Shown: piece after piece, positions 1 through 8,981 of the stretch | Layout of the letters: each line of letters starts with the position of its first letter | Numbering within the stretch: the stretch's first letter is position 1 | Assembly (NCBI GenBank): GCA_023379355.1 | Contig: JAMCUD010000028.1 | Location: forward strand, 1-11,807 | Direction: 5' to 3' | Length of the DNA: 11,807 bases | Source: Thermoplasmatota archaeon | GTDB lineage: Archaea > Thermoplasmatota > Thermoplasmata > Thermoplasmatales > Thermoplasmataceae | Program-made: the position numbers and the translations under genes | Notes under the pieces: generated by a model | What the model saw: the letters and a program-made list of their open reading frames with translations, nothing else | Told to the model about the DNA's origin: nothing | The model's database searches: none

Positions 1-178
1 TGCGGTTTCTCTTAACTTCCGATGCAATTTGATCCAGCGACTTGTCCTCTTTATCGTTCAGTGTGTAGAATATCTTATAATCGATTTCGTTCAAGCCGTA
101 GAGGCATGAGAGAAGATCGCTGCATGCGGATTTCTTCTTTGTGGACTGGATCAGAGATAGCACCCTTAGATATACCAT
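1..178 (-). CDS. Putative HTH transcriptional regulator, N-terminal part
   Basis: The minus-strand frame opens with ATG at 178 (MVYLRVLSLIQSTKKKSACS...) and runs off the left edge after 59 codons. The visible part ends in LNEIDYKIFYTLND followed by SLDQIASEVKRNR. This resembles the start of an archaeal winged-helix domain of the TrmB/MarR sort: a helix, a turn, then the start of a recognition-helix region. Two cysteines sit at residues 19 and 25. The gene is divergent from the thioredoxin genes, so it may regulate them and itself; that is inference. The frame stays open upstream to an ATG at 262. I prefer 178 because a TATA-like box (minus strand, 227-218) would place the transcript start near 198. 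DNA-binding function is likely, but the subfamily cannot be assigned from a fragment. Confidence 0.6.
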   Translation of the reverse strand, partial: MVYLRVLSLIQSTKKKSACSDLLSCLYGLNEIDYKIFYTLNDKEDKSLDQIASEVKRNR

Positions 179-189
179 CTGAATATTTA

Positions 190-214
190 GATATTTCGTG
201 AAATTTGAAATATC
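190..214. promoter_or_regulatory. Inverted repeat, candidate operator of the divergent promoter
   Basis: GATATTTC (190-197) and GAAATATC (207-214) are perfect inverted 8-bp arms with a 9-bp spacer. A smaller palindrome, ATTTCGTGAAAT (193-204), overlaps the left arm. The site lies between the regulator's TATA-like box and its ATG, over the predicted transcript start, where a repressor would block it. It recurs unchanged at 447-471 in the second copy of the duplication. Binding by the neighbouring regulator is inferred. Confidence 0.45.
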
Positions 215-217
215 GTC

Positions 218-227
218 AAATTTATAA
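218..227 (-). promoter_or_regulatory. TATA-like box of the regulator gene
   Basis: On the minus strand the sequence reads TTATAAATTT. A start about 25 bases downstream, near 198, would give a leader of about 20 bases before the ATG at 178. The box is repeated at 475-484 in copy 2. On the plus strand it reads AAATTTATAA and could also serve thioredoxin with a leader of about 90 bases. Confidence 0.4.
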
Positions 228-337
228 CCCCGTTTCCAATCCATAAGGGCAGGAAATTGCATTCGGACCTTGGATGAGCATAATCTTTGCGGGGAAAAAT
301 TACCTGTAAGTTTAAAGTTTGACTGGGGGATGAGAAA

Positions 338-439
338 ATGACAGATGAGGAACTGGAGAATATAAGAAAAAATATGTACAACAGTATTCTGAATGCAAGG
401 AAACTGGATAAAGATAGCACCCTTAGATATACCCTCTGA
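338..439 (+). pseudogene. Truncated thioredoxin start left by the duplication
   Basis: The ATG at 338 begins the same first 25 codons as the intact thioredoxin gene at 595. At base 414 the sequence jumps back to the start of the second repeat copy, and the frame adds eight unrelated residues (DSTLRYTL) before TGA at 437-439. The result is a 33-residue ORF with no redox domain. It keeps a full promoter copy and a start context matching thioredoxin (one base differs, G321/A578), so it could be transcribed and translated. If so, its transcript would lead into the real promoter and gene. It is a duplication by-product, not an independent gene. Confidence 0.85.
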
Positions 440-565
440 ATATTTAGATATTTCGTGAAATTTGAAATATCGTCAAATTTATAACCCCGTTTCCAATCCA
501 TCAGGGCAGGAAATTGCATTCGGACCTTGGATGAGCATAATCTTTGCGGGGAAAAATTACCTGTA

Positions 566-594
566 AGTTTAAAGTTTAACTGGGGGATGAGAAA
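566..594 (+). promoter_or_regulatory. Thioredoxin promoter and start region (copy 2)
   Basis: AGTTTAAAGTTT at 566-577 is TATA-like and centred about 24 bases before the ATG at 595, consistent with a near-leaderless transcript. A purine-rich GGGGGATGAG (582-591) sits just before the ATG and may help ribosome binding if transcription starts further upstream. The same elements at 309-337 precede the truncated copy, with one base changed (G321/A578). Confidence 0.45.
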
Positions 595-1005
595 ATGACA
601 GATGAGGAACTGGAGAATATAAGAAAAAATATGTACAACAGTATTCTGAATGCAAGGAAACTGGATAAAGTGAATAATATGGATGGAAAATCAGTTGAAT
701 TGAATGATGGGAATTTCGACCAGATTGTAAACAGGCCCGGGCTGATGGTAGTTGATTTCTGGGCTGAATGGTGTGCGCCCTGCAGGTTTGTGTCACCAGT
801 TCTTGACGAACTGGCTAAAGAATATGCGGGTAAAATGGTCCTGGGAAAACTGAATGTGGATTTAAACCCACAGGTATCAGCCAGATTTATGATAAGAAGC
901 ATACCGACCATAATGTTTTTCAAGGATGGAAAACCGGTTGACACAGTAATAGGTGCTCTTCCAAAACCTATGATAGAAACAAAGATAAAGAAAAACCTGA
1001 ACTAG
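595..1005 (+). CDS. trxA: Thioredoxin
   Basis: This 136-residue protein has a thioredoxin fold after a charged N-terminal extension of about 30 residues. The active-site stretch FWAEWCAPCRFVSP places the redox cysteines at residues 60 and 63. The motif is WCAPC rather than the common WCGPC. The cis-proline is in SIPT (Pro104), and FFKDGKPV matches the conserved late strand and turn. The protein would act in the cytoplasm as a dithiol-disulfide reductant. Its stop TAG (1003-1005) overlaps the GTG start of the reductase gene by one base, so the two are surely co-transcribed. The first 25 codons lie in the second copy of the 257-bp duplication. ATG 595 is chosen because the coding-like sequence and promoter spacing both begin there, although the conserved domain itself starts near residue 32. 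Confidence 0.95.
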   Translation: MTDEELENIRKNMYNSILNARKLDKVNNMDGKSVELNDGNFDQIVNRPGLMVVDFWAEWCAPCRFVSPVLDELAKEYAGKMVLGKLNVDLNPQVSARFMIRSIPTIMFFKDGKPVDTVIGALPKPMIETKIKKNLN

Positions 1006-2021
1006 TGAATAAGATGCCGAAAAAATATGACGTTATAATTGTGGGAGGGGCCTCGGCGGGCCTCTCTGCTGCCCTTTATACTTCCAGGCAGAACCTAAAA
1101 ACGTTAGTGATAACCAAAGATATTGGTGGCCAGGCGCTTCTAACAGATTCCATACAGAATTACCCCGGGTACCAGAATATAGGGGGCCAGAATATAGGGG
1201 GCTTTGATCTGCTGACTAAGTTTCAGGAACAGGCAATGATCTATGGTGCGGAATTCCTGTACGACGAGGTGCAGAGCATTTCAGAGTCTGAAGAAGGATT
1301 CGCGGTTAAATCGTATTCCGATGAAAGTTTAGCTGAAACGCTCATACTCGCATTTGGAAAGACACCTCGTGATCTTGGCGTATCTGGAGAAAACGAACTT
1401 AAAGGAAAGGGCGTATCATACTGTGCAGTGTGTGACGGTCCTCTTTTCAAATCTAAAAAAGTGGCGGTAGTTGGCAATGGAGATAATGCAATAGAGGCCG
1501 CAAGCTATCTCTCTTCTCTGGCCTCAAGCCTATATATTGTACAGTCAACCGAAAAGATCAGAGGAGATGAGGAAACTGTCAATTCCCTTAAAAGCATGAA
1601 AAATGTAGAGTTCATAAACGGCAGTACAGTAAACAAAATTCTTGGAGAAAACTCAGTCACAGGTCTGGAACTGAAAACCAAAGATGGAAAAAACAGCATT
1701 GAAACTGATGCAGTGTTTATTGAAATGGGGTACATTGCCAGGACAGACCTTGTAAAGGACCTGGTCGAACTTAACAAGATAGGAGAAGTTGTTGTGGATA
1801 AGTTCTGTGCAACCTCCAAGGAAGGGATCTTCGCCTGTGGAGATGTTACTGACACCCCATACAAGCAGGTAGTTATATCTGCCGGACAGGGAGCCATAGC
1901 CGCGCTATCAGCATACAACTATATTCAGAGAAAGAAAGGGAGACCTACCTCCAAAACAGACTGGAAAAGTGTCCGTGTGCAGAAAGAGGATAAATCCGAT
2001 TTCAAACTTTCAAGGACATGA
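1005..2021 (+). CDS. trxB: Thioredoxin reductase-like FAD-dependent oxidoreductase
   Basis: This 338-residue flavoprotein follows the low-molecular-weight thioredoxin reductase plan. The N-terminal FAD motif is VIIVGGASAGLSAA (residues 10-23). The redox pair is CAVC (Cys140, Cys143), the second dinucleotide fold is VAVVGNGDNAIEAA (153-166), and the C-terminal FAD motif is GIFACGDVTD (274-283). It would pass electrons through FAD and the disulfide to the thioredoxin encoded just upstream. The segment that normally reads HRRxxxR in NADPH-dependent enzymes is QSTEKIR here (180-186). Only the last arginine remains, so NADPH is unlikely to be the donor. QNIGG occurs twice in a row (57-66) through a 15-bp in-frame duplication. 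The start is GTG 1005 or ATG 1014; neither has a clear ribosome site. Confidence 0.9.
   Translation: MNKMPKKYDVIIVGGASAGLSAALYTSRQNLKTLVITKDIGGQALLTDSIQNYPGYQNIGGQNIGGFDLLTKFQEQAMIYGAEFLYDEVQSISESEEGFAVKSYSDESLAETLILAFGKTPRDLGVSGENELKGKGVSYCAVCDGPLFKSKKVAVVGNGDNAIEAASYLSSLASSLYIVQSTEKIRGDEETVNSLKSMKNVEFINGSTVNKILGENSVTGLELKTKDGKNSIETDAVFIEMGYIARTDLVKDLVELNKIGEVVVDKFCATSKEGIFACGDVTDTPYKQVVISAGQGAIAALSAYNYIQRKKGRPTSKTDWKSVRVQKEDKSDFKLSRT
1172..1201 (+). repeat. 15-bp in-frame tandem duplication in the reductase gene
   Basis: CCAGAATATAGGGGG is present at 1172-1186 and repeated exactly at 1187-1201. It doubles QNIGG in the protein. Related reductases have a single copy of this FAD-domain segment (NYPG..xIGGF...), so one copy looks like an insertion of five residues. 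Confidence 0.95.
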
Positions 2022-2066
2022 TGCCTGGGATTGAGGTTTTCAATATTTTCTTATTTTTCCCTGATT
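2022..2066. terminator. T-rich convergent intergenic region
   Basis: This 45-bp gap separates the end of the reductase gene from the end of the kinase gene on the other strand. The plus strand carries TTTTCTTATTTTTCC at 2046-2060, a pyrimidine-rich tract typical of archaeal transcription stops. No stable hairpin is apparent. Confidence 0.5.
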
Positions 2067-2603
2067 TCAGTGTTCTTTTTCAAGTTTTTTAATAAATTCC
2101 TGGGCTTTTGTTTTGAACTCTTCAAGTGTTCCATCATTCACTATCATGTAATCTGCCAGTGAAATCACTCTGCCTATTCCCCATGATAGCTCCCTTTCGT
2201 CCCTGCCATTTAGTTCATTTGGGCTTTTCACGTCGTCTTCCCTGTCTCGTTTCAATATTCTGGCGAGGCGGTCGTCGTGGTTTGCATATATTGCAACAAC
2301 CCTTACATTCTCGAACCTGTTCCTGAAGTACTCCAATTCCTCAACGTTTCTCAAGCCGTCAACTATTGTCCTTTCCGGATTGGTGATATTTTCAGAGGTC
2401 CTTTTTGCCCATATGTCCATTCCATGAACCTTCCTTTCAGAACCTGCGAATTTTCCAATGTCGTAGTCTTTCTGATCAATTTTGTGTTCCCTGGAGTATT
2501 TCCTCACGGTATCTCCCATGTGAACGTCCACATAACCCATGGTTCTGGCTACTTTTATGAATTCATCCTTCCCTGATCCAGGCATTCCTGTTACAATAAG
2601 CAT
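2067..2603 (-). CDS. UPF0200 family P-loop nucleotide kinase-like protein
   Basis: This 178-residue protein begins MLIVTGMPGSGKDEF, with the Walker A loop at residues 6-12. Further landmarks of the archaeal UPF0200 family follow: HMGDTVR (28-34), TIVDGLRNVEELEYFR (79-94), AIYANHDDRLARILKRDREDD (104-124), the RDERELSWGIG stretch (134-144) and LADYMIVND (149-157). The fold is that of nucleoside monophosphate kinases and dephospho-CoA kinase, and databases often name it after the latter. The true substrate is not established. Length is normal for the family. Its TATA-like box lies just past the stop of the upstream 96-residue gene, so it can be transcribed alone or with that gene. Confidence 0.88.
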   Translation of the reverse strand: MLIVTGMPGSGKDEFIKVARTMGYVDVHMGDTVRKYSREHKIDQKDYDIGKFAGSERKVHGMDIWAKRTSENITNPERTIVDGLRNVEELEYFRNRFENVRVVAIYANHDDRLARILKRDREDDVKSPNELNGRDERELSWGIGRVISLADYMIVNDGTLEEFKTKAQEFIKKLEKEH

Positions 2604-2610
2604 TTGATTT

Positions 2611-2662
2611 TATCCCCCATAACAATATTATTACATCTCTCAAGTTTGAGGATATTTTATAA
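2611..2662 (-). promoter_or_regulatory. Promoter and ribosome site of the UPF0200 gene
   Basis: On the minus strand TTATAAAATA (2662-2653) is a good TATA box, which would start RNA near 2631. The resulting leader of about 28 bases contains GGGGGAT (2618-2612), about nine bases before the ATG at 2603. This gene therefore appears leadered, unlike most of its neighbours. Confidence 0.5.
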
Positions 2663-2663
2663 C

Positions 2664-2954
2664 CTATCCAAAGAGGAAACCCATCCCACCTTCTGCGTTC
2701 TCTTCCTCTTCCTTTATTTTTCTGTAAATTTCCGCTGCCTCCTTTTCCGGGATAGGATCCATACTTGCCCCAAGCAACTCAGTCACCTTTTCGAATATGT
2801 TCTCCGGCCCTTCTATTACCACAATTGTTGAACCGGGGATGTTGAAACCTGAACCGTCTTTCTGAATTATGGTCTGTCTTCCCACAACGTCATCAGATAA
2901 AAGTTTTTCAACCAGTTTCTTCTGGTCCGAAGCAAGCTTGTAAATTTTGAACAT
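2664..2954 (-). CDS. Uncharacterised 96-residue protein with stalk-like C-terminal tail
   Basis: I do not recognise this family. Residues 1-62 look like a compact alpha/beta domain: MFKIYKLASDQKKLVEKLL, then strands around QTIIQK and STIVVIEG, then a helix ENIFEKVTELLG. Residues 65-85 form a charged helix (PIPEKEAAEIYRKIKEEEE). The end, EEEENAEGGMGFLFG, is an acidic run followed by a glycine/hydrophobic tip ending in LFG. Archaeal ribosomal stalk protein aP1 ends in the same style (acidic run, then GLxxLFG), and eukaryotic P-proteins end GFGLFD. The protein is not aP1 itself, since it lacks the helical dimerisation domain and the alanine-rich hinge. A TATA-like box centred 25 bases before the ATG suggests a leaderless message. 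The gene precedes the UPF0200 kinase by 60 bases on the same strand. Confidence 0.75.
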   Translation of the reverse strand: MFKIYKLASDQKKLVEKLLSDDVVGRQTIIQKDGSGFNIPGSTIVVIEGPENIFEKVTELLGASMDPIPEKEAAEIYRKIKEEEENAEGGMGFLFG

Positions 2955-2972
2955 AGCCGGTTAAGCCCACAA

Positions 2973-2983
2973 CAAATATAAGG
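2973..2983 (-). promoter_or_regulatory. TATA-like box of the 96-residue protein gene
   Basis: On the minus strand the sequence reads CCTTATATTTG, centred about 25 bases before the ATG at 2954. This fits a leaderless transcript starting at or next to the start codon. Confidence 0.45.
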
Positions 2984-3037
2984 ATGTTGACATAAATAGA
3001 GGCGCCAGATCTACTGCAAGAATGGTCTGAGAAAGTT

Positions 3038-3271
3038 TTAACTGTTTGAGGAAATCTTATGAAACGTAGTGACCTCCTCTCCCAGCTTTCGCAGGGACCT
3101 TTCCACTTCAAAGGTTGCAAGCGGATCTCCACGGGCTTGAATTTCCATCGATCGAAGTGCACTGCCCTTCATCCCATGCAATGTGACTTTGCGGATTCGG
3201 GCACCAATGAGACAATATGCTTTCGATCGCTTTCGTCCCCGATTTTGCGAAGGGGAAATTCTTGCTCGCAA
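3038..3271 (-). other. Compositionally foreign open frame, possible gene fragment
   Basis: The 376 bases between the starts at 2954 and 3331 hold no convincing gene. The stretch at about 3059-3270 stands out by being richer in G+C and in CpG than its flanks. A minus-strand frame here starts at TTG 3271 and runs 77 residues, including KVTLHGMKGSALRSMEIQAR. Nine of its eleven arginines use CGN codons, whereas all six arginines of the thioredoxin gene use AGA/AGG. No ribosome site or ATG supports it, and I recognise no family. It could be the remnant of a transferred element, the shadow of an RNA gene, or chance. A competing plus-strand frame (3059-3277) is equally unsupported. Confidence 0.25.
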
Positions 3272-3287
3272 TGTTAAAATTTAACAT
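3271..3287. promoter_or_regulatory. Perfect 17-bp palindrome upstream of korAB
   Basis: ATGTTAAAATTTAACAT has two perfect 8-bp arms around a central A. It lies about 45-60 bases before the korA start and just upstream of its TATA-like tract. That is the usual place for an archaeal activator site, or for an operator next to the B-recognition element. It also marks the right edge of the G+C-rich island. Confidence 0.45.
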
Positions 3288-3290
3288 CTC

Positions 3291-3306
3291 AATTAAAAAA
3301 ATATTT
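3291..3306 (+). promoter_or_regulatory. TATA-like tract of korAB
   Basis: The AT-only stretch AATTAAAAAAATATTT precedes the korA ATG at 3331. Its ATATTT part is centred about 27 bases upstream, suggesting a leaderless message. If the upper part of the tract is used, transcription would instead begin near the alternative ATG at 3322. Confidence 0.45.
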
Positions 3307-3330
3307 GAATTACGTAACAATATGGTATGG

Positions 3331-5256
3331 ATGTCAGAAATTGACCTTAACCTAATAATAGGAGGACCGCAGGGAGGCGGTATCGACACATCTTCCAATA
3401 TGATAAGTCGCTCATTTGCAGCTTCCGGGTACAATGTTTTCGGTGTAAGGGAGTACCACTCCAACATTAAGGGTAGACATAGCTACACACACCTGAGAAT
3501 TAAGAAAGAAAGACCAAGGTCACTGAAATATCCGGTTGATATTCTTGTTGCACTTGATGCAGACACGCTTTTCGAACATCTTGATGATGTCTCTAAGGGC
3601 TCCAGAATAATATACGATGCAAGCTTTGAAAATTCTGAGCTTTCTCAGGCCAGAATGATAATGAGGGATACCTCCAGAAGAATAAGAGAGAAACTGAACG
3701 CTGAGAATCTTCCAAACAATGTGAAGGGAGTACTTGCCTATATGGAAAAGAGAGGAGCCAGGCCCCTAAAGGTTCCATTTGAAAGCATAGTGACCTCTGT
3801 TGTCAAGGATGGTCCTGCAACAAGGTATTTCAATACCCTGGGTGCTGTTATAACACTTTCAATTGCCGGACTTGACCAGAAGTTTGCCGAGGAAGGTATA
3901 AGGGCAGTATTCTCCAACAAGGAGAAAGTTGTCAAAGAGAACATTGCGGTAGTTGAGGCTGCATACAAGTACGCACAGAGTAATTCCATGAGCGGAACAA
4001 ACCTTGAAGTCATCGACACAAAGGAGAGGATGCTTCTCACCGGAAACGATGGGGCAGCCATAGGAAAACTGATGGGTGGGTTGAGATTCCAGACCTACTA
4101 CCCAATTACCCCTGCCAGTGATGAAAGTTCCATACTCGAGGATCATGAAACAGTCAGATGGATAGCCTCAGAAGAGAAAAAGCTCAAGGATTCTGGAGTC
4201 GTTGTTGTACAATGCGAGGATGAACTGTCCGCCATTACAATGGCAGAGGGAGCAGCACTGACCGGCACCAGAACAGCAACTGCTACAAGTGGTCCAGGGT
4301 TTTCACTGATGGCTGAAGCCATAGGCTTTGCAGGTATGGATGAGCTTCCCATTGTAGTTACGTTATACCAGAGAGGCGGGCCGAGCACAGGGCTTCCAAC
4401 GAGAAACGGACAGAGAAACGGACAGTCAGACCTCATGTTTGCACTGAACACCGGACATGGTGAGTTCCCAAGAATCGTAATATCTTCCGGAGACGTTGAG
4501 GAGTGCATTTATGACGCCATGAGATCGCTGAATTACGCTCACAGATACCAGCTTCCAGTGATACATATGATAGATAAGAATCTGGCAAACACAACAGATC
4601 TCATACCTGAAATAGACAGTAAGAAGGTAAAGGTCGTACTCAGCGTCCAGACAATGAAGCAGGAGGATTTCAAGAGATACAACCTGAATACCGAGAATGG
4701 AATTTCAGAAATTGGCTACTTTGGAAAGAACATTTTCTGGATGACAGGAGACGAACACGATGAACTGGGGCATGTTACAGAGGATTCCGAGATAAGAGAC
4801 AGGATGATGAGGAAAAGGTTCAGAAAACTGGAAACAGCCGTTGCTGAGATACCCATGGAAGACCGGGTACAGCTTTTGGGGAATCCGGACGCCGATGTTA
4901 CGTTCGTCACATGGGGAAGCCAGAAGGGCCCCATACTGGATGTAATCGAGAATCTTAAGAAAGAGGATGTTTCAGCAAACCTTCTTTACATAAAGATGTT
5001 CGATCCTTTCCCGTCTGAATTTGTCGAAAAGGTTCTGGGAAAAGCCAAGATAGTAATTGACGTTGAAAGTAATATGACAGCTCAGGCAGCGAAGGTGATT
5101 AAGCAGAACACAGGTCTGAGCATAAGTAGAACAATTCTGAAATATAATGGCAGACACATGACAGAGGATGAGATATTGAAAGGAACAAAGAAAATACTGG
5201 AAGATGTTTCTTCCGGAAGGGAAATCGTTAACGAGGTGCTTGTAGATGGCGCATAA
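3331..5256 (+). CDS. korA: 2-oxoacid:ferredoxin oxidoreductase, fused gamma-alpha subunit
   Basis: This 641-residue protein joins two domains found as separate subunits in many enzymes. The gamma-type domain comes first (LIIGGPQGGGIDTSS, residues 8-22, and EYHSNIKGRHSY, 41-52). The alpha domain starts near residue 234 (LLTGNDGAAIG) and carries YPITPASDES (257-266), the signature of 2-oxoacid oxidoreductases of the Sulfolobus/Thermoplasma type. With the beta subunit it would convert a 2-oxoacid and CoA to acyl-CoA, CO2 and reduced ferredoxin in the cytoplasm. The substrate cannot be read from sequence alone. ATG 3331 is chosen from TATA spacing and because conserved sequence begins at once; ATG 3322 is the alternative, and a longer frame back to 3217 is not supported. 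RNGQ is doubled at 358-365 by a 12-bp duplication in a conserved loop. The stop overlaps the korB start by 11 bases. Confidence 0.93.
   Translation: MSEIDLNLIIGGPQGGGIDTSSNMISRSFAASGYNVFGVREYHSNIKGRHSYTHLRIKKERPRSLKYPVDILVALDADTLFEHLDDVSKGSRIIYDASFENSELSQARMIMRDTSRRIREKLNAENLPNNVKGVLAYMEKRGARPLKVPFESIVTSVVKDGPATRYFNTLGAVITLSIAGLDQKFAEEGIRAVFSNKEKVVKENIAVVEAAYKYAQSNSMSGTNLEVIDTKERMLLTGNDGAAIGKLMGGLRFQTYYPITPASDESSILEDHETVRWIASEEKKLKDSGVVVVQCEDELSAITMAEGAALTGTRTATATSGPGFSLMAEAIGFAGMDELPIVVTLYQRGGPSTGLPTRNGQRNGQSDLMFALNTGHGEFPRIVISSGDVEECIYDAMRSLNYAHRYQLPVIHMIDKNLANTTDLIPEIDSKKVKVVLSVQTMKQEDFKRYNLNTENGISEIGYFGKNIFWMTGDEHDELGHVTEDSEIRDRMMRKRFRKLETAVAEIPMEDRVQLLGNPDADVTFVTWGSQKGPILDVIENLKKEDVSANLLYIKMFDPFPSEFVEKVLGKAKIVIDVESNMTAQAAKVIKQNTGLSISRTILKYNGRHMTEDEILKGTKKILEDVSSGREIVNEVLVDGA
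4401..4425 (+). repeat. 12-bp in-frame tandem duplication in korA
   Basis: AGAAACGGACAG occurs at 4402-4413 and again, exactly, at 4414-4425. It turns RNGQ into RNGQRNGQ. Relatives usually read GLPTRxGQxDL with one copy, so four residues look inserted next to the active-site region of the alpha domain. Confidence 0.95.
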
Positions 5257-6198
5257 TTTCAAAACAGATCTGGCAATAGACTGGTGCCCGGGATGTGGGG
5301 ATTTTGGTATACTTACCTCCATAACCCAGGCTATGTCAGAGTTGAACTTGGGCAGGCTATGTCAGAGTTGAACTTGGGACCACATGATGTGGTGGCCGTG
5401 TCTGGTATTGGCTGTTCTGGAAAGACTCCACACTACCTCAACATTGCAGGGGTTCATACCCTCCATGGCAGATCCATACCCTATGCAACTGGGGTTAAAC
5501 TCTCAAACCCGAACCTGAAAGTTGTAGTTACTGGAGGAGACGGGGACCTCCTGAGCATAGGGGCAGGGCATTTCGTTGCAGAAGGCAGAAGAAACAGCGG
5601 ACTGGCAGTAATCCTATTTGATAATGCAGTTTATGGACTTACAAAAGGACAGGCTGCCCCAACAATGGAACTTGGGGAGAAGACAAAGGGCCTCAGCAGA
5701 GATAATATGTTTGGCAGGGTAAATCCAATAGCACTGGCACTCACATCAGGGTACAGCTTCGTGGCGAGAGGTTTCTCATTCGACATGAAACAGCTCAAGG
5801 AACTTATAAAGAGGGCCATCATGCATGAGGGTTCATCTGTCATAGATGTTCTCCAGCCGTGCCCAACCTACAACAACATAAACAGCATGGAATGGTACAG
5901 GCAGAGAGTTTACAAACTTGAGGATGACAAGACATGGGACCCGGTTATTAATCAGGAAAACAAGACCAGCATTTCCCAAAAATACCAGAACGCTTATAAT
6001 AAGGCACTGGAATGGGGCGACAGAATACCCACAGGAGTGTTCTATGATGACCAGACCCTTGCACCCTTTACCAAGAGGATCAACCGTATAGTTCCATCAT
6101 ACCTTGAAAATCCCCCTGCAGTTCAGGTGGTTTCGACCAGTGAGGGGTATACTGTTGTTGATCCAATGAAAACCTTTGCCGATAAGATCATTAAATGA
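5246..6198 (+). CDS. korB: 2-oxoacid:ferredoxin oxidoreductase beta subunit, frame broken by a 26-bp duplication
   Basis: ATG 5246 overlaps the end of korA. It encodes MAHNFKTDLAIDWCPGCGDFG and then, because of a tandem duplication at 5327-5378, reaches TGA at 5369-5371 after 41 residues. The rest of the protein continues in another frame to TGA at 6196-6198. Removing one 26-bp copy gives a normal 308-residue beta subunit. Its four cluster cysteines would be 14, 17, 48 and 197 (WCPGC, GIGCS, QPCPT), and its thiamine-diphosphate motif would be GGDGDLL (88-94) with DNAVYGLTKGQ (117-127). A GTG at 5284 opens the downstream frame, but that product would lack WCPGC and so should not bind the [4Fe-4S] cluster. 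As written the gene is non-functional; everything else in it looks under selection, which favours a recent event or a sequence error. Confidence 0.9.
5327..5378 (+). repeat. 26-bp frame-breaking tandem duplication in korB
   Basis: The 26 bases at 5327-5352 are repeated exactly at 5353-5378. Both encode QAMSELNLG, the first copy in the upstream frame and the second in the downstream frame. No extra bases are shared at the junctions. Because 26 is not a multiple of three, the reading frame is lost. Confidence 0.97.
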
Positions 6199-6220
6199 TC
6201 TTTCAAAATTTTTATATTAT
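6199..6220. terminator. Short AT-rich convergent spacer
   Basis: Only 22 bases lie between the korB stop and the restored stop of the exporter gene on the other strand. TTTTTATATTAT (6209-6220) continues into TTATTT. Such a T-rich run is a plausible archaeal terminator for korAB. Confidence 0.4.
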
Positions 6221-6887
6221 TTATTTCAGGAAAAGATCAAGACCATAGTATAGAAAAACTATACCGAACGAGATCAGTATTACAAAACTGAACAGCTTGA
6301 TTCCATCAGCCAATTTTTTTCCATACCTCAACACTGACCTGTTTATTGCATATGTCAGAAACGCCACCCATAAAACTATCCCTCAACACTGACCTGTTTA
6401 TTGCATATGTCAGAAACGCCACCCATAAAACTATCCCGATGAAAAGAAAGTAGAAGGGTTCAATGCCGAATCTCTGGAATACGCTTAATCCTGCTGTTAA
6501 CCACCATGCTATCTGCATTGGATTTACAAGTCCCAGAAATAGCCCAGAGAAATAATTCATATTTTTTTCTGGAGATCTAATGCTTTCGGAGTATCTGGAC
6601 CTCAAAACTCCCACTGAAAGGAATATGAAAAAAATTCCCCCAATGAGAAATATGTAACGGTTATATGATCCCAGGTCAATGGAAGATCTGAATCCAATGG
6701 TTATGAGCATGAGTGTGAAGTCTGCAGACATTGCTCCCATTCCAATCATGAATCCTTTGAGAACAGATGTCATGGATCTTTCAACAATCATTGCTGTGAT
6801 TGGCCCTGGTGGTGCTGCCAGCGATACTCCCAGAGACATTCCAAGAACTATTGCCACCCCTATGATCATAAATGTGTGCTGTCCCAC
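6221..6887 (-). CDS. LysE-family exporter, frame broken by a 55-bp duplication
   Basis: The minus-strand gene encodes a membrane protein beginning GVAIVLGMSLGVSLAAPPGPITAMIVERS. The conserved PPGP near the N-terminus and about six hydrophobic segments fit the LysE/RhtB type of amino-acid exporter. After INRSVLR the frame shifts inside a 55-bp tandem duplication and stops at 6308-6306, giving 193 residues with an odd hydrophilic tail. Without one copy it continues YGKKLADGIKLFSFVIL and on to GLDLFLK, which restores the last membrane helix and ends at TAA 6223-6221. That makes 203 residues from GTG 6887, or 197 from ATG 6869. ATG 6869 fits the TATA-like box at 6902-6893 better. Substrate unknown. 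Confidence 0.75.
6326..6435 (-). repeat. 55-bp frame-breaking tandem duplication in the exporter gene
   Basis: The 55 bases at 6326-6380 are repeated exactly at 6381-6435. Two bases, CC, are shared at the right junction. The length is not a multiple of three, so the last membrane helix of the exporter is lost from the frame. Confidence 0.97.
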
Positions 6888-7590: not shown

Positions 7591-8895
7591 TTACTCTGAA
7601 GGTGTGGCATCCCAGATGTCCCTGATCTTTTCGTCAATTTTTTCCAGTGGAAGAAAATCTGCCGGTACTGATGTATCGATCCTGGCCTGCTTGCCTATGC
7701 CTTTTCCCTTGAATTTCTCAAGATCCTTGTCCTCAACAAGGTAGCGTTTTACGTCAAAGTAGTTTCCAGCAACCCTTATGAACCTTGTTCTGCCGTATCT
7801 TCCATGACTCTTTGTGCTTGTGGTGAGGAGGCCGAAGTCTTCAAGTTCTGTGAGAATATCACTTATTCTGCGGCTTGAAAGCTGGGCGAAACCAAGTTCA
7901 CGGCATATGCTCTTGTAATTCTCGAAGATCTCCCCTGTGAACATCATGGAACTGTCCATTTCCTGTGTCACGACAGCACTGAGCAATACCATCTTGGATT
8001 GTGGCGGCAAAGTTGCGACCGCTTCCCTCATGACATCCATCTCGAACTTGTCCCTTGCCCTGTAAACCTCCTTATCGGTAACCTTTGTTGTTCCATCCCT
8101 CAGTGAAACTTCAATTGCTATGCGCATTAGCTCAAGTGCTTTCCTTGCATCGCCGTGCTCCTGTGCACCTATTGCAGCGCACAGATTGAGCGCAGAATCG
8201 TCAATTGGCTTGGAACCTGAGATATTGCTTATCCTTAAGGTGAGAATGTCTCTCAGCTCAGATGCATTGTAGGGGGGGAACATTATGCTTTCCTGATTCA
8301 GTCTGCTACGGACCCTGGCATCCAGGGATTCAAGAAAACCGGTGTCATTGGTTATACCTATGAACGACGTTCTGGTAACAGTGGAATCGTCACTGAGTTT
8401 CAGTATGACGTACAGGGCATCCGGGCCATTTTTCTTTATGATCTTGTCAATCTCGTCCAGCACCACGATCATAAATCTCCTTGACCTGTTCATACGCCTC
8501 AGCAGTTCTGAATATATCCTGTCCATTGGCCAACCAAGGCCAGGAATTTTATCCTCATTTGTATTGGTAAGAGCATTGGCTATTTCTACAAGAATTGAAT
8601 ATGGAGAATCGAAAACCTGGCAGTTTACATGGAAGATCTCAATTCCCTCAGGGTCCTTCTCTTTCAGCATTTTTGTGACATAAGTTGTGGTTGAGGTCTT
8701 TCCCGTCCCTGTTTTCCCGTATATGAGAAGATTTGACGGCCTGCTGTTGTGGAAAACACTGCTCAGTGTCCTTGCCATCAGATCAATTTCCCTCTCCCTG
8801 TGGGGAAATATTTCAGGCAGGTATGAACCCTCCAGAACAGTCAGATCAAGCTTATTATTGATCATTTCAGCGGAATATTTTTCAAACGGATTCAT
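7591..8895 (-). CDS. cdc6: Orc1/Cdc6 replication initiator
   Basis: This 434-residue AAA+ protein binds origin DNA and helps load the MCM helicase. Walker A is GKTGTGKT (residues 60-67), Walker B is VVLDEIDKI (144-152), sensor 1 is in GITND (180-184), arginine-finger candidates are in LDARVRSRL (191-199), and sensor 2 is in GDARKALELMR (248-258). A winged-helix domain follows from about residue 293, with ELGFAQLSSRRISDILTELEDFGLL (333-357) as the DNA-reading part. It ends with a less conserved tail of about 40 residues. ATG 8895 is directly followed by NPFEKYSAEM, a usual start for the family. Archaeal origins often lie beside such genes. The 86 bases upstream contain CCAGTGAAAT (8904-8913), only a weak match to the origin recognition box. 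Confidence 0.95.
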   Translation of the reverse strand: MNPFEKYSAEMINNKLDLTVLEGSYLPEIFPHREREIDLMARTLSSVFHNSRPSNLLIYGKTGTGKTSTTTYVTKMLKEKDPEGIEIFHVNCQVFDSPYSILVEIANALTNTNEDKIPGLGWPMDRIYSELLRRMNRSRRFMIVVLDEIDKIIKKNGPDALYVILKLSDDSTVTRTSFIGITNDTGFLESLDARVRSRLNQESIMFPPYNASELRDILTLRISNISGSKPIDDSALNLCAAIGAQEHGDARKALELMRIAIEVSLRDGTTKVTDKEVYRARDKFEMDVMREAVATLPPQSKMVLLSAVVTQEMDSSMMFTGEIFENYKSICRELGFAQLSSRRISDILTELEDFGLLTTSTKSHGRYGRTRFIRVAGNYFDVKRYLVEDKDLEKFKGKGIGKQARIDTSVPADFLPLEKIDEKIRDIWDATPSE

Positions 8896-8953: not shown

Positions 8954-8971
8954 ATGCAGGATCAACTGCAT
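8954..8971. terminator. Small hairpin after the folC stop
   Basis: ATGCAG (8954-8959) and CTGCAT (8966-8971) can pair around the loop GATCAA, and GATCAA is repeated directly after at 8972-8977. On the minus strand a run of five T follows the folC stop immediately. It may end folC transcription or act in the cdc6 upstream region. A six-base stem is weak evidence. Confidence 0.3.
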
Positions 8972-8981
8972 GATCAAAAAG

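Follow-up and report, generated by a model that had tools for sequence, protein, structure and literature searches.

Five tandem duplications in a contig of a Thermoplasmatales archaeon near Oxyplasma are probably unmerged contig overlaps

The stretch of archaeal DNA analysed here, 11,807 bases long with 43% G+C and referred to as the window, contains five tandem duplications, which are best explained as an assembly artefact in which overlapping contig ends were abutted without the overlap being merged. Judged from the duplicated sequences, from background counts, from the state of the same sites in relatives and from published precedent, this reading is given a probability of roughly 0.8. By their protein matches, the window genes belong to a Thermoplasmatales archaeon close to Oxyplasma; among the matches listed, the nearest proteins assigned to a named species come from Oxyplasma meridianum (86% for TrxB and 86% for the LysE-type protein).

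An exact scan for tandem units of 8–400 bp recovered four pairs in the window, with units of 15, 12, 26 and 55 bp, and at this range no further exact pair. Tandem Repeats Finder supplied the fifth, a 257-bp unit at about 155–670, whose copies differ by three mismatches (Table 1). In every pair the copies directly abut, with no extra sequence in between, and the repeat extends past the unit at the junction by 2, 1, 1, 0 and 2 bases for the 257-, 15-, 12-, 26- and 55-bp units, respectively. The longest exact stretch shared by the copies is accordingly 13, 16, 26 and 57 bases for the 12-, 15-, 26- and 55-bp pairs, and 92 bases for the 257-bp pair. Summed over the five junctions the extension is 6 bases, a total at the level of chance (P = 0.16 for at least 6), and slippage or recombination between repeats was rejected as the source of the pairs, the junctions sharing just 0–2 bases. 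A preliminary description of this DNA had placed five duplications here, with exact copies in the four short pairs, junctions sharing 0–2 bases and an origin other than simple-repeat slippage, all of which was borne out. It had also stressed their clustering and the lack of any pair in the last 5.4 kb: all five do lie in the first 6435 bases, but this left-half clustering is weak (P = 0.048, one-sided), and the right half holds no exact pair but does hold one imperfect tandem 12-mer at 8955–8977, detected by Tandem Repeats Finder and the sole hint of a sixth pair.

Table 1. Coordinates of the tandem pairs and of the genes in which, or beside which, they lie.
Feature	Position	Strand	Remarks
257-bp unit, copy A	155–411	.	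boundary free by 2 bases, hence also 157–413
257-bp unit, copy B	412–668	.	3 mismatches relative to copy A
15-bp exact tandem pair	1172–1186 + 1187–1201	+	inside trxB; exact-scan span 1172–1202
12-bp exact tandem pair	4401–4412 + 4413–4424	+	inside korA; exact-scan span 4401–4425
26-bp exact tandem pair	5327–5352 + 5353–5378	+	inside korB; frame-shifting
55-bp exact tandem pair	6326–6380 + 6381–6435	-	inside LysE-type gene; exact-scan span 6326–6437
trxA (thioredoxin)	595–1005	+	intact, read from copy B; PF00085, E 3.2e-28
trxB (thioredoxin reductase-like)	1014–2021	+	ORF; in frame, 5 extra residues
korA (2-oxoacid:ferredoxin oxidoreductase alpha subunit)	3334–5256	+	in frame, 4 extra residues
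korB (2-oxoacid:ferredoxin oxidoreductase beta subunit)	5246–6198	+	frame broken by 26-bp copy
LysE-type transporter gene	6221–6869	-	PF01810, E 1.4e-11; frame broken by 55-bp copy

The effect of the pairs on the genes differs from site to site. As the preliminary description had claimed, two of them break genes, the 26-bp pair shifting the korB frame near the start of the gene and the 55-bp pair shifting that of the LysE-type gene near its end. With starts matched to the relatives' proteins P0121 and P0241, the window versions of these genes are longer by exactly 26 and exactly 55 bases, respectively. The PF01810 match came from scanning a longer piece of the LysE-type gene; a shorter piece matched no family (E up to 0.001). 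The 257-bp unit takes in the opening part of a divergent frame, roughly 24 codons from the beginning of trxA and, between the two, a conserved intergenic stretch; the divergent frame can still be read from copy A and trxA from copy B. Two of the four in-gene pair lengths are multiples of three, as overlap lengths indifferent to reading frame could give.

The genomes nearest by TrxB are G001 (85%) and G054 (89% over 188 residues), a TrxB match having been found, at the threshold used, in 61 of the 77 genomes of the family to which G001 belongs. Over the main aligned stretches, DNA identity to the window is 80–83% for G054 and 72–88% for G001. Site by site, the copy number is one in every relative examined: the 15-bp site is single-copy in both covering genomes (contig C44 of G001 and C1 of G054), the 12-bp site in the one genome that covers it (G001 C48), the 26-bp and 55-bp sites each in both covering genomes (G001 C48 and G054 C60), and the 257-bp site in G054 C1, the sole contig covering the whole of it. 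A comparison with closely related genomes, suggested as a check in the preliminary description, therefore returns a single copy wherever contigs of these two genomes cover a site.

Proteins from the same or a near strain give the same picture. TrxB P0001, from another record, is 98% identical to the window's protein and 330 aa long, and is without the five extra residues; KorB P0121, also from another record, is 98% identical and intact at 308 aa; and the LysE-type protein P0241, which stands for three contigs, is 100% identical over the aligned 84% of the query and intact at 197 aa. These three are representatives of 90%-identity clusters, and they cover the 15-, 26- and 55-bp sites; for the 12- and 257-bp sites the comparison was with G001 and G054, which are more distant. 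In viral contigs the 26-bp unit had no match, so these yielded no second record of the window. The pairs aside, gaps relative to G001 inside genes are small and balanced, so the accuracy of the sequence is good outside the pairs. Noisy long-read assembly was considered as a source of the duplications and set aside as unlikely, the frames outside the pairs being clean against G001.

The 257-bp pair, at 98.8% identity, differs from the others in its mismatches, which fall at 177/434, 245/502 and 321/578 and divide it into exact stretches of 22, 67, 75 and 92 bases. At positions 245 and 321 copy A agrees with G054, and at 177 copy B may do so, the alignment being ambiguous there; compared in this way, the mismatch pattern would be as consistent with a pair of strain variants as with ageing of the two copies. 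Contig C44 of G001 starts inside the region matching this pair, and the similarity of C58, from the same genome, to the window also ends in it, 61 bases before the contig end, so that this region is a breakpoint in an independent assembly as well. No corresponding break was found in G001 at any of the four remaining sites.

The duplicated region includes a stretch at 193–229 (again at 450–486), beside trxA, at which G001, G054 and the window do not differ at all, within surrounding alignments of 72% and 81% identity. A promoter or operator shared by the divergent genes is the probable reading. The divergent frame at 2–262, putatively HTH-like, meets stops at this stretch in G054, and the divergent gene may for this reason start further downstream. 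Elsewhere in the window, a degenerate dispersed repeat lies between two genes at 3063–3280. Twelve matches to it were listed, 11 in G001 (at ten places, two of the matches being one copy in C1) and one in G072, at 70–86% identity, scoring being limited to the 40 best candidates in each genome. Stops interrupt most of its reading frames, and one minus-strand frame may resemble the final portion of a TnpB-type transposon protein; the two ORFs overlapping the repeat gave no Pfam match, and an Rfam scan of the whole window gave no match.

Chance is ruled out as the origin of the pairs by shuffled sequences and background counts. Among 300 dinucleotide shuffles of the window (units 8–60), none carried an exact tandem pair with a unit of at least 12, and 70 carried one with a unit of at least 8. 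In 747,606 bases from 39 Thermoplasmata loci around korA (L001–L039 of a set of 80 loci) there was no exact pair with a unit of at least 12, and six with a unit of at least 10; in 448,122 bases from 45 contigs of G001 and G054 there was one of at least 12, a 14-bp pair located at 8614–8642 of L148 (G001 C5). Neither the 39 loci nor the 45 contigs contained a pair of at least 30 bases at 95% identity. On these two sets together, the expected number of exact pairs with a unit of at least 12 in the window is 0.0099, and the probability of four or more is 3e-8 even at three times the background rate.

Low-complexity pairs (periods under 10) were removed from loci and contigs before counting. The control contigs, 23 from G001 and 22 from G054, are a non-random sample that includes those matching the window; about half of the other G001 contigs were taken from a list of matches, and the remainder were chosen by contig number. 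One contig is present in both sets, as L011 and L144, so that about 11.5 kb was counted twice. The other 41 loci of the set, from other groups, hold nine exact arrays with a unit of at least 12 in 675,236 bases, one of them the 27-bp pair of L075, and did not enter the rate; counting them lifts the number expected in the window from 0.01 to about 0.06.

Unmerged overlaps could arise as follows. The window is probably a short-read contig or scaffold from an uncultured Thermoplasmatales archaeon near Oxyplasma, and at up to five places the ends of neighbouring pieces would have overlapped by less than the assembly k-mer (12, 15, 26 and 55 bases); overlaps of 12–55 bp, as in the exact pairs, are shorter than common k-mers. 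The 257-bp overlap would be longer, but broken up by strain differences into exact shared stretches of at most 92 bases. Because its three mismatches cut the longest exact string to this length, which is also the longest in any pair and falls below a large k-mer such as the source assembly presumably used, an assembler working at larger k could not have merged these ends. During subsequent scaffolding, gap closing or merging, the pieces may then have been set end to end with the overlap untrimmed, so that each overlap would now be present twice and reads would be expected to support a single copy. Strain variants, invoked in the preliminary description for overlapping read or contig ends in general, are needed for the 257-bp pair, but the four exact pairs require just short overlaps. 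A variant in which one fixed k-mer overlap was retained whole at each join was rejected, all the lengths being different.

Varied lengths, exact copies, chance-level junctions, indifference to reading frame, single copies in the near-strain proteins at three sites and otherwise clean frames are what would be expected of untrimmed overlaps, and these features favour the artefact. As a counterpoint, five faults within 6.3 kb imply a poor assembly, yet the remainder of the window reads cleanly.

The preliminary description had offered two explanations, and of these the unmerged overlap proves the better supported, whereas there is little to support a duplication-prone process or gene switching, given junctions at chance level and near-identical relatives in which the genes frame-shifted here are whole. 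The main rival is nonetheless that the duplications are real and recent, made in one strain by a microhomology-free process such as offset-nick fill-in and ligation, and are neutral or harmful and unregulated. Copies that are exact, at junctions sharing no more than chance would give, would suit such a process, the 257-bp pair could owe its three mismatches to post-duplication mutation, and passages of two papers on Sulfolobus acidocaldarius, another acidophilic archaeon, list tandem duplications, in pyrE, among its spontaneous mutations (PMC3139894, PMC7785828). It is judged unlikely in view of five duplications in 11.8 kb, where 448 kb from the nearest genomes has one and 747.6 kb of related loci has none, and of the breakage of korB, which encodes a central enzyme subunit and otherwise remains 98% like P0121. 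G001 and G054 do not themselves contradict a recent burst, since they are only 72–88% identical to the window at the DNA level; what speaks against such a burst in this strain is the near-strain proteins alone, which cover three sites out of five. A strain with a genuine homology-independent duplication process, running at more than a hundred times the level of its nearest relatives and breaking, and maybe restoring, genes such as korB, is a considerably more doubtful proposition.

It is very improbable that the pairs are scars of insertion sequences with long, variable target duplications, of the IS1634/IS1549 kind, from which the element was lost or dropped by the assembler. The reported range of such duplications, 8 to 514 bp in the relevant passage of PMC2266710, includes all five units, and the transposase domain PF01609 is found at eight places in the more distant relative G072, six of them over the cut-off. 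Nevertheless, the copies adjoin with nothing between them, PF01609 matches in the nearest genomes number one in G001 and none in G054, and five insertions within 6.3 kb, two of them in kor genes and none left in place, would be implausible; in addition, no Pfam match to a transposase was found among the 13 window pieces scanned. Least probable of all is a reversible switch, in which the trx region, korB and the LysE-type gene would be toggled as tandem copies come and go. A reading frame is indeed shifted by two of the five pairs, and the 26- and 55-bp pairs could in principle be lost again, but the remaining pairs are in frame or leave genes still readable, the affected genes look housekeeping in nature, and the sites are single-copy in the near-strain proteins at three sites and in the nearest genomes wherever covered.

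The main significance of the unmerged overlaps is as a warning that, in metagenome contigs, exact tandem pairs that cluster and lack microhomology can mimic biology, since such joins can pass for gene inactivation, extra enzyme residues or phase variation. They also suggest a cheap screen for such joins, namely a scan for exact tandem pairs of at least 12 bp against the low Thermoplasmata background. If both copies prove real, the window would instead be a rare example of an extremely duplication-prone genome.

A narrow literature search on short tandem duplications, archaea and microhomology found no paper, and no claim about the literature rests on it. Several known systems resemble the window in part. 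The pyrE duplications of S. acidocaldarius are, as there described, likewise short, tandem and in a gene of an acidophilic archaeon, but concern a single reporter gene, whereas the window has five in a row in unselected genes (PMC3139894, PMC7785828). The target duplications of IS1634 and IS1549 span all five unit lengths, but in the account given in PMC2266710 the element sits between the copies, where the window has nothing. Nearer to the preferred reading are the false segmental duplications described in part of Kelley and Salzberg (2010, PMC2864568), which consist of duplicated overlapping contigs from haplotype variants: as in the window, variant ends of adjacent contigs stand side by side, at 98.1% identity there and 98.8% in the 257-bp pair. 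Those cases come from diploid vertebrate genomes and were tested with mate pairs; the window is from an archaeon, with strain variants in the place of haplotypes and without mate pairs. Also close is the second type of local assembly error set out in a section of Chen et al. (PMC7111523) for IDBA-UD and CLC metagenome assemblies, in which an overlap between flanking sequences is kept as duplicate sequence. There the join carries Ns, while the window has none, so that any Ns would have been closed or never inserted; in both, the overlap is kept twice and a direct repeat marks the join.
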